Of a stretch of DNA of 64,000 nucleotides, positions 1 to 2,434 are shown in pieces. Both the position numbers and the translations under genes were made by a program. Origin of the DNA: Halichondria panicea (Eukaryota > Porifera > Demospongiae > Suberitida > Halichondriidae); the NCBI RefSeq assembly GCF_963675165.1, contig NC_087387.1:3994990-4058989 (forward strand), in the 5' to 3' direction. The notes below the pieces were generated by a model. The model made no database searches, was not told where the DNA came from, and saw nothing but the letters and a program-made list of their open reading frames with translations. Position 1 is the stretch's first letter. Every line of letters begins with the position of its first letter.

Positions 1-250
1 CAACAAAAACTTGTTGTGTGAAGGCTATCCATGCTGTAAACGAACCACTATGGCATCAAGGTAAGCAGACTCAGAATTACACAGACAAACAAACCAACGG
101 ACTACTATACCTGCTGACCGCAGCAGGGCCTCAGGTATAATTATCTTCTTAAAAAGAATCTACTCCAAAAGTGCATGGAGCATACTGCCATTGAGGTGTG
201 TGTGTGTGTACAGCTATGTTTTGTTTGTACAATAATTATTATTGCTGTTA

Positions 251-558
251 CAGCTGAACCTCCATTACCGACCACCTTCGAAGAGTAACCACACACGATA
301 AAACGGCCAAGAGCTCAGGTCTGGATTGAAACTACAATGACTTCAATGACTTCATGTAAAGCAACTTCTCAGGAGCGATCAACTTTCTACTCCGTATAAC
401 GAGCAGTTTTCTAATCCCCCCGTCCCTACAGCCTTTTCAAAGCTTGTATATATGAGTTAGAGAAACGGTTAGCAAAGCTCCAATATTCATATGCAGGAAT
501 TGATTCAGAGCACACACCTCTGTTCCCCAATGGTGTTTGTTTTATGGAGGTTCCACTA
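251..558. mobile_element. pogo/Tigger-like MITE
   Basis: The left end reads TA then CAGCTGAACCTCC; the right end reads GGAGGTTCCACTA then TA. The two ends are imperfect inverted repeats of the CAGT(T/G)GAACCTCCAT type known from pogo/Tigger elements, with TA target duplication (249-250 and 559-560). About 308 bp, no transposase. A near-identical copy lies at 24037-24344 and longer relatives elsewhere in the window. Confidence 0.65.
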
Positions 559-1195
559 TATTATTTTTGTATGAGCAAAATTACGTTACGAAATTAAGGT
601 ACTTCCACGAAAAAATTAAGTGTGGTTCGAAATTTCACGCTATACAGAATATCATCCCGACAAAAAGAGACACATGCATATAATGACGGCACCGCAGGTG
701 CTGATACCTCGGTGGATGTGTCAAAGCTACATAACATAAATCTACTAGCGATTGCTAATACACACAGATATCATAATTTTCTTACGGTAATTTTGCTGCA
801 TATAACCACAGGGAAACTCAAAGAGTGGGAAATGATGGACAATCCCCTCAGCTAAGATGCTTTATTAATTGTAAAAAGAATGTGTACAAAAAATTAATGG
901 AGTATGGAATTCCTTCTACAGTAACAAACGAGTTTTTGGCTGACATAATTATTATGCCTCGAGGCGTAGCCGCAAGAGGGATACGGTAAAGCTGACTGCA
1001 GCGTGTGACAAATAGTTTGTACATAATTGTGTACATTAATTATAGGCACCGAAAAAATCATGTCTAGTAGGAAAAAAGGATAGCTATAATTATAAATGGT
1101 TTGTATACTTATTCAGCCCCAAAGCGATACCTTAACGATGTACACAAATACATTTAAGAGCTCTACATACATTGCACAAACCAATAATTGCTCAC

Positions 1196-1473
1196 TTTAT
1201 TCTGGCTGTTGACTTGAGCCCTCACAGAAACCAGTAGTTCCACAACACTGAGATGGCCTTCTTGAGCAGCTACCATGAGAGGAGTGAAACCATCCTGTGA
1301 GACAAGAATATCACGGACAGTGTTTCACTATAATTATGGTACATGAATATTCAGTTAATAGGATATGAACCCACCGTCTTTGGTAGGTCAACAATGGCTC
1401 CAGCAGTGATCAAATGGTGAGCGATATCTTTGTGTCCAATGAAGCTGGCTGCCCAGAGAGCAGTCTCTCCGCC
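1196..1473 (-). CDS. Two-exon ankyrin-repeat cassette (partial gene)
   Basis: Transcribed on the minus strand: exon 1375-1473, an 80-nt intron, then exon 1196-1294. Each exon is exactly 99 bp and encodes one 33-residue ankyrin repeat. The first has the GETALWAAS...[14 protein letters not shown] pattern, the second [20 protein letters not shown]. Acceptors end in AG (AATAG, CACAG), donors are GTGGGT and GTGAGC, and the introns are phase 0. The family normally binds proteins through stacked repeats. Neither exon has a start codon or a terminal domain, so this is an internal part of a larger gene or a relic. The intron contains an ATAATTAT motif (1330-1337). Confidence 0.8.
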
Positions 1474-1537
1474 CTATTAATAATTATAGTACTAGTTAAT
1501 AATCACACATACCGTACATGTATGAGAGAGCGAATAT

Positions 1538-1715
1538 TTCGAGGCGCTTAATTTCTGCTATGTTCGAGGGATAGCAATCCTCCACGAAAATTAGGTCCAC
1601 AAAATACTGACAGACGCGACATCTTTGCATGACCAAAATAGCGTGAATTTACGCTTTTGGAGACACTTTCACACAAAAACCCCGGAAAAAATCGTGCTAC
1701 GTATATATGCATGGT
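1538..1715. repeat. Dispersed repeat family R2
   Basis: Starts with a TTCGAGGCGCTTAATTT box and ends near AATCGTGCTACGTATATATG. Related copies start at about 5993, 8034, 11810, 13849, 23138, 25566, 42704, 50846, 57804 and 59886; some are truncated. Several copies sit a short distance beyond (higher coordinate) an ankyrin exon. The minus-strand open frame through it (60-69 codons) is conserved only because the DNA is, and has no recognisable domain. It is probably a non-autonomous element whose ends I could not define. Confidence 0.5.
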
Positions 1716-1810
1716 ATAATTATCATCCACACAAAAGTAAGCAACACAGTCATATGCATAATTATGCAGCGTGTGACAATAGTTGTTTGCAGGTACTGCA
1801 GTGTTGTCTA

Positions 1811-1981
1811 ATGGTGAACATAATTATGACACCTACTGAATTTGAACACAGGTATAGAGCGCTTGTTAAAGTGGACAAAGTCAAATTGTCAGATGCTCCA
1901 CTGACAATGAGTTTCTATCTTGAGAAGGCCTTTACACATGGAAGTATAATAATAGGGAGCAGTAATACAACCCCTGAATAG
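1811..1981 (+). other. Recurrent unidentified open frame
   Basis: A plus-strand frame starting near MTPTEFEHRYRALVK and ending at a stop after SSNTTPE recurs at 14122-14292, 6262-6432 and 58077-58247. The last copy has two Gly replacements but stays open. No domain is recognised and no splice signals were assigned. The copies are too similar for open-frame conservation to prove selection. It could be an exon of an unrelated gene or chance. Confidence 0.2.
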
Positions 1982-2434
1982 TGGGCGTGGGCTACGTGTG
2001 ACTCAGTTCTCAACTAAAGCACTAAAGTGCTAACCCTAGGCTGTTGACATGAATAAATAAAACCAGGAGTGTTCAGTTATAGAAGCAACAAAATACAATT
2101 CTACTTTTGATAGAGACCGTTAAAGGATTACTTCAGCTGCTCGAATAAAGGTCGCGTGTAGAGGTAAGTTTAGCTTTTGCTCGCTTTTATACGACAACGA
2201 AGCTTTAATATCGAAATCTGCCCAATTAAAACTAATATTGTGTGGAGGATATCCATGCTTGACATGAATAAATAAAATCAGGAGTGTTCAGTTATACAGT
2301 AGAGGCCAAAATAATGTTTCTGTTCCTTTTGCGTAGTACGCTGATTAGATTGCACGCAATTTTTTTTCCCAGTAAAATCATGTAAAAGTTAGAGGGTTGG
2401 ATACAAAGCTAGAACAATCAAGAAAATATGTTAT

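Follow-up and report, generated by a model that had tools for sequence, protein, structure and literature searches.

Four-base gains at ATAT and the genome-wide abundance of the palindrome ATAATTAT in Halichondria panicea

Abundance and exactness of the palindrome

The 64-kb stretch of sponge DNA analysed here (referred to in its entirety as the window) raises the question of how a single 8-bp palindrome, ATAATTAT, has come to be its commonest 8-mer, with 121 copies where 3.3 are expected from dinucleotides (order 1) and 12.1 from an order-3 model. The nine starts listed for the first 2 kb in the original prediction are all exact matches, and the statement that well under one would be expected there agrees with an order-1 figure of 0.11, although the tenth, given at about 235 on counting overlapping variants, turns out to be an inexact copy. 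The window is rich in paralogous stretches (234 self-matches over threshold) and duplication accounts for part of its count; since many of the copies are paralogous, we have therefore also counted ATAATTAT elsewhere. Twelve 10-kb samples drawn from nine contigs (L001-L012; 120 kb, or 0.09% of the genome) hold 97 copies with 3.5 expected, and in the whole 131-Mb genome there are 100,191, compared with 5,899 of the reversed-letter control TATTAATA. This corresponds to one copy per 1,312 bases, or 762 per Mb, which is 17 times the control, and the over-representation is thus confirmed as genuine and genome-wide.

The over-represented unit is the exact 8-mer, as TAATTA in other contexts stays near background: among the xTAATTAy words of the samples the outer pair A..T accounts for the 97 copies and each of the remaining 15 pairs for 1-9. 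Likewise, among NN-AATT-NN words ATAATTAT reaches 31 times its expectation and the runner-up, TTAATTAA, 3.8 times. The base immediately to the left of the palindrome is seldom G, and that immediately to its right seldom C (4%, versus 18% beside ATAT), while weak differences are seen 3 and 5 bases out and hardly any at other outer positions. In the samples the spacing of copies is near random (85 gaps, mean 993, sd 1057), with a slight excess of close pairs (8 under 50 bases, 4.2 expected). The same samples contain further enriched palindromes, namely TACATGTA (12.5-fold), CATGCATG (about 10-fold), TGCATGCA and AGCTAGCT (7-fold each), which look more like short tandem units than like insertions into ATAT.

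Filled and empty sites and the direction of change

Upon alignment of paralogous stretches of the window, the three pairs predicted to differ as ATAATTAT versus ATAT do so, by exactly four bases (26936/800, 22100/10836 and 23290/50981), and the same difference in length separates 58683 from 6876, the partner there being ACAT. The six-base difference claimed for 22190/35997 was found as well, and the LINE-like stretch, said to lack the palindrome, is indeed free of it (Table 1). Such pairs show both states without giving the direction of change. Site 800 was tried for a genome-wide polarisation and rejected as too variable, its 14 matches falling in several length classes. The many classes found at this site and its 13 further genome matches include GCATGCATGCAT and ATATAATAT forms, and some ATAT sites are therefore generally unstable.

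Table 1. Coordinates of copies of the palindrome, of their paralogous partners and of elements (positions are those of the window, or follow the colon for loci elsewhere in the genome)
Feature	Position	Strand	Remark
ATAATTAT copy, one of nine in the first 2 kb	137..144	.	exact match
Other eight ATAATTAT starts in the first 2 kb	232, 945, 1086, 1330, 1480, 1716, 1758, 1820	.	exact match
Empty ATAT	800..803	.	same site filled at 26936, 52354, 57054, 61988; self-alignment of window
Filled ATAATTAT	26936..26943	.	partner of 800
Empty ATAT	10836..10839	.	same site filled at 22100, 35909, 49797
Filled ATAATTAT	22100..22107	.	partner of 10836
Empty ATAT	50981..50984	.	same site filled at 23290
Filled ATAATTAT	23290..23297	.	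partner of 50981
Filled ATAATTAT	58683..58690	.	partner near 6874-6877 is ACAT (+4)
Filled ATAATTAT	29956..29963	.	ATAT in four paralogous partners
Filled ATAATTAT	53535..53542	.	ATAT in one paralogous partner
Filled ATAATTAT	22188..22195	.	+6 versus partners
LINE-like element	38740..42494	+	nature judged by eye, open frames present; 0 ATAATTAT, 15 ATAT
GCCTCGA...-ended hairpins	L002:837-890, L009:8505-8545, L011:8668-8723, L065:117-162, L087:655-715, L088:52-96		
Second hairpin family, 67 bp	L006:8220-8290, L009:4970-5040		ends TATCCTCCGCTA between TAs

The direction of change was read from a high-copy element, for which a first look gave 2,941 candidates, 40 of these being scored at 93-100% identity to the query, and an anchor within which has 361 exact matches in the genome. 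Its copies have one end in common and differ in how far they extend at the other, like truncated retrotransposons, a class that we regard as putative. This very high-copy repeat (L005:5239-5730 and copies L013-L032, 93-95% identical) has its fixed end near CCTCGAGGCGTAGCC and carries a (TG/TC)n stretch. It also contains CCTCGAGG near one end and was considered as a source of the motif; among the loci retrieved in the analysis, BLAST partners were found for just 6 of the 97 motif sites of the samples, and the element was consequently not treated as the main source and was used for polarising.

The studied part of the element contains ten ATAT, and at all ten this is the majority state. From 100 anchor copies among the 361 matches, listed without selection, 93 were usable (48,631 bases, 757 substitutions, 1.56%), those with fewer than 250 aligned bases or less than 88% identity being left out of the gain count (L039, L042, L050, L051, L060, L070 and L151). 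Exact changes from ATAT to ATAATTAT were found at four of the ten sites, in 2, 2, 2 and 6 of these copies; the other six gave no exact gain, among them TATATA at 454 (0/89) and GATATT at 323 (0/86). The palindrome thus arises as a gain of exactly four bases, ATAT being the older state, and the predicted insertion of AATT into ATAT is supported, now polarised by copies with a common majority state; the evidence for gain is confined to one element family and the window pairs of one genome. Distinct insertions in the element copies have a local mode at length 4 (24 of four bases, versus 15 of three and 7 of five). Distinct deletions, counted at positions below 470, have their mode near 9 (14 of nine bases, versus 5 of three and 7 of four), which is unusual next to an insertion mode of four.

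On the tree one change suffices for the pair of carriers at one site, and the six-carrier site is mostly one group, giving 4 to 7, about 6, independent gains per 814 site-copies. At 1.56% divergence this amounts to about 0.5 gains per ATAT per substitution per base, that is, roughly half the per-base substitution rate, an estimate with few events behind it. One ATAT site was searched in every genomic copy and yielded 38 inserted alleles, 23 of them AATT; 20 of the 38 copies were fetched for the tree (19 AATT and one +1), and the 14 scored carriers at this site require 12 changes, versus 13.5 with shuffled labels. A duplicate genomic copy (L040/L099 overlap) had been taken out, and 9 of 134 copies with fewer than 200 aligned bases were dropped, including the AATT carriers L102, L103, L104, L113, L115 and L116. 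The carriers are scattered over this poorly resolved tree as though the gain recurred, and we consider the case for recurrence strong but not final, because few nodes of the tree are well supported (17 of 117 at 0.9 or above) and conversion between copies could mimic recurrence. At two further sites AATT makes up 16 of 27 inserted alleles, largely in one group, and 3 of 5. Carriers are also more diverged than non-carriers (medians 2.1% versus 1.1%, one-sided P 0.007), with 6 of the 11 carriers at one site and mostly in one group.

Form of the inserted alleles and a possible break-and-repair origin

The inserted alleles at three sites have a characteristic form, which we have tallied with shared descent included. 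AATT is the commonest (42/70), nine alleles are +1, and 59 of the 61 alleles of at least two bases can be written as ATA-X-TAT, the exceptions being TAT and AATC. Indeed, an insertion AT-N-AT in which N starts with A and ends with T is equivalent to a duplicated TA around a filler X; this filler is usually AT, and may also be empty, A, T, AA, AAT, AAAAT, AAAAAAT, ATTAT, ATTATTAT, G or CATG. A TA is duplicated in 11 of the 22 distinct +4 insertions that the element shows, versus 3.7% of random insertions (positions below 470, lengths 2-10, insertions seen only in the poorly aligned L061 left out), and some of these are tandem copies that could also arise by slippage. In the samples, forms in which the A run is longer exceed expectation, ATAAAATTAT occurring 5 times with 0.33 expected, and none of the 12 samples holds a copy with both runs lengthened.

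A staggered break that is closed after fill-in duplicates its overhang. We propose, giving the account about an even chance of being right, that ATAATTAT arises through a sequence-directed insertion, ATAT to ATA-AT-TAT, which recurs genome-wide by way of a staggered break, seldom where the site has G on its left or C on its right, and is balanced by ordinary decay. The cut would be staggered by 2 bases about the central TA of ATAT (A^TA_T), the 5'-TA overhangs would be filled in so that TA is duplicated, one untemplated A would be added to each 3' end, and joining of the ends would give TA-A-T-TA. As ATAT is itself palindromic, both ends are alike and would receive the same base, and hence the product is palindromic. 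Under this scheme repair with no added A would produce the +2 allele, a one-sided A the +3 allele and longer A-tails the forms ATA-A(n)T-TAT, all of which occur. The fillers CATG, ATTAT, ATTATTAT and G and the nine +1 alleles fall outside the simple scheme, which also gives no reason for the dominance of exactly one A per end.

In a more specific version, which we put forward tentatively and consider rather less likely than not, a putative germline enzyme, either a domesticated transposase or a Spo11/TopoVI-like nuclease strict for ATAT, would cut A^TA_T throughout the genome and repair would add one A per filled-in end; a fixed 4-bp insertion would then be among the most frequent specific mutations, and the palindrome would be written by mutation alone. 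According to the accessible parts of PMC12918824 and PMC7615360, the breaks made by Spo11 carry 2-nt 5' overhangs and end joining in the germline produces indels; a fixed 4-bp insertion at a fixed sequence is not among the outcomes described there. The 2-bp duplication would be compatible with such an overhang, and it is the sole feature found here that would be. If the proposal is correct, an insertion gained at its target about half as often as a base is substituted would be an extreme example of mutation directed by sequence, a highly iterated palindrome could arise through mutation without selection, and one genome would offer a countable readout of one break-repair route, with about 100,000 insertion markers. 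An earlier account of the motif or of the process was not found in a literature search that mostly covered papers outside subscription, and none of the papers mentioning ATAATTAT treats it as a genome motif, going by their titles and the openings of their abstracts.

Alternative origins and known systems

The original prediction had listed excision footprints, a tiny mobile palindrome, a repair bias and selection as possible causes: selection is not needed, and footprints and repair bias both still stand, the evidence leaning toward break-and-repair over footprints, which a single genome cannot separate. A cut-and-paste transposon that targets the TA of ATAT would leave TA duplicated together with an A and a T from its ends, or with a 2-base AT overhang, and we regard such footprints as the chief alternative to the proposed break, less likely than it but possible. 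By form they are the nearest known system, since the footprints of mariner and Stowaway elements, and of the Tc1/mariner group generally, consist of TA duplicated around a few bases with a palindromic filler (accessible text of PMC4561436), and a duplicated TA with a short filler is just what 59 of the 61 longer alleles present. Moreover, TA-NN-TA is enriched only where NN is AT, CG, TA or GC (2.3-3.5-fold, versus 0.8-1.2-fold for the other 12 NN), and transposon ends explain enrichment at all four self-complementary NN as well as the break does, or better. Tiny hairpin elements with a TA duplication and GC ends are present in 6 copies, and a TA-GC-TA insertion (L046) matches them; transposases of the Tc1-like (DDE_3, 96 matches) and pogo-like (DDE_1, 63 matches) types are present as well.

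The difference from such footprints lies in the dominance of one filler, in a context that is almost only ATAT and in the source: no convincing inverted-repeat element with a TA duplication and AT or A ends was found in the window and the 12 samples (184 kb, with 121 + 97 presumed footprints). Where transposase elements have readable ends, these are not A...T. Six Tc1-like loci were examined, four of them with readable ends, all CAGAGG or CAGGG, and six pogo-like loci, two with readable ends, both CAGTAG; one further DDE_1 family examined with its flanks has no readable ends, and Transposase_1 (PF01359) gave 0 matches, a result that carries no weight, as its control likewise matched nowhere. 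ATAT is also preferred over TTAA at least tenfold. A-TA-T is not the setting of any of the 6 GC-ended hairpins but is that of the transposase elements L094 and L119, so that context provides no clean argument.

The loci L093-L098, L119 and L121-L124 contain elements of the Tc1-like type, with CAGAGGTTTTCAGG and CAGGGTTTTGCAG as ends, and of the pogo-like type, with CAGTAG ends, and the pairs L095/L096 and L123/L124 are more than 99% identical, which suggests recent transposon activity. The GCCTCGA...-ended hairpin family has TA on both sides, and the stretch enclosed by the two TAs measures 37-52 bp in five copies and 57 in one.

An explanation by ordinary slippage in AT-rich sequence, whether in a single step or in several, is improbable. 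As in microsatellites, the sites are AT-rich and fall in several length classes, +1, +2, +3 and +6 alleles occurring as well, and (AAT)n-like words are likewise raised. However, AATT within AT|AT does not repeat its surroundings or a neighbouring unit in tandem and is nevertheless the leading inserted allele, and the +3 intermediates ATATTAT/ATAATAT are just mildly raised in the samples (41 versus 28.75). Simple slippage thus fits badly, as had been predicted.

A selected binding or methylation site, that is, a eukaryote counterpart of HIP1, appears very improbable. HIP1 (GCGATCGC) and other highly iterated palindromes are cyanobacterial and occur at 300-2700 per Mb; HIP1 is tied to DNA methyltransferases, and its proposed origin is biased substitution from one-off sequences (accessible text of PMC4390886). 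By abundance this is the nearest system, a single 8-bp palindrome that is the commonest 8-mer at hundreds of copies per Mb, and the density found here lies within that range, as befits a highly iterated palindrome; the avoidance of G just outside ATAATTAT also counts for a selected site. The difference is that HIP1 is bacterial and attributed to substitution, whereas the gains of ATAATTAT, in a 131-Mb genome, are +4 insertions into ATAT. Their rate explains most of the abundance: with loss through substitution at eight positions, the decay model gives an expected ATAATTAT:ATAT ratio of about 0.06, the samples have 97:706 = 0.14, and mutation pressure thus explains the abundance within two- to threefold, the prediction falling short by that factor. 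One-mismatch neighbours in the samples number 166 with 75-91 expected, 26 of them being ATTATTAT, which is a triplet repeat as well. Their excess comes close to the count of perfect copies, and they are about as common as would be expected from neutral decay without selection. The near-random spacing also speaks against a selected site. Mutation with subsequent decay is thus in keeping with both the rate of gain and the neighbour counts, and no selected function is needed.

The palindrome is scarcer than ATAT in long open frames (0.16 versus 0.63, 150 codons), a depletion that was set aside as support, as other AT-only 8-mers are nearly as depleted and the difference inside frames is not significant (4/97 versus 33/501, P 0.49); withdrawal of this possible counter-argument slightly raises the case for a sequencing or assembly artefact. 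Such an artefact is nonetheless hardly credible, for although all data come from one assembly, filled states are kept between paralogues of the window, and one filled state is common to copies that group on the tree, with 8 carriers and 4 changes, versus 7.9 when shuffled.
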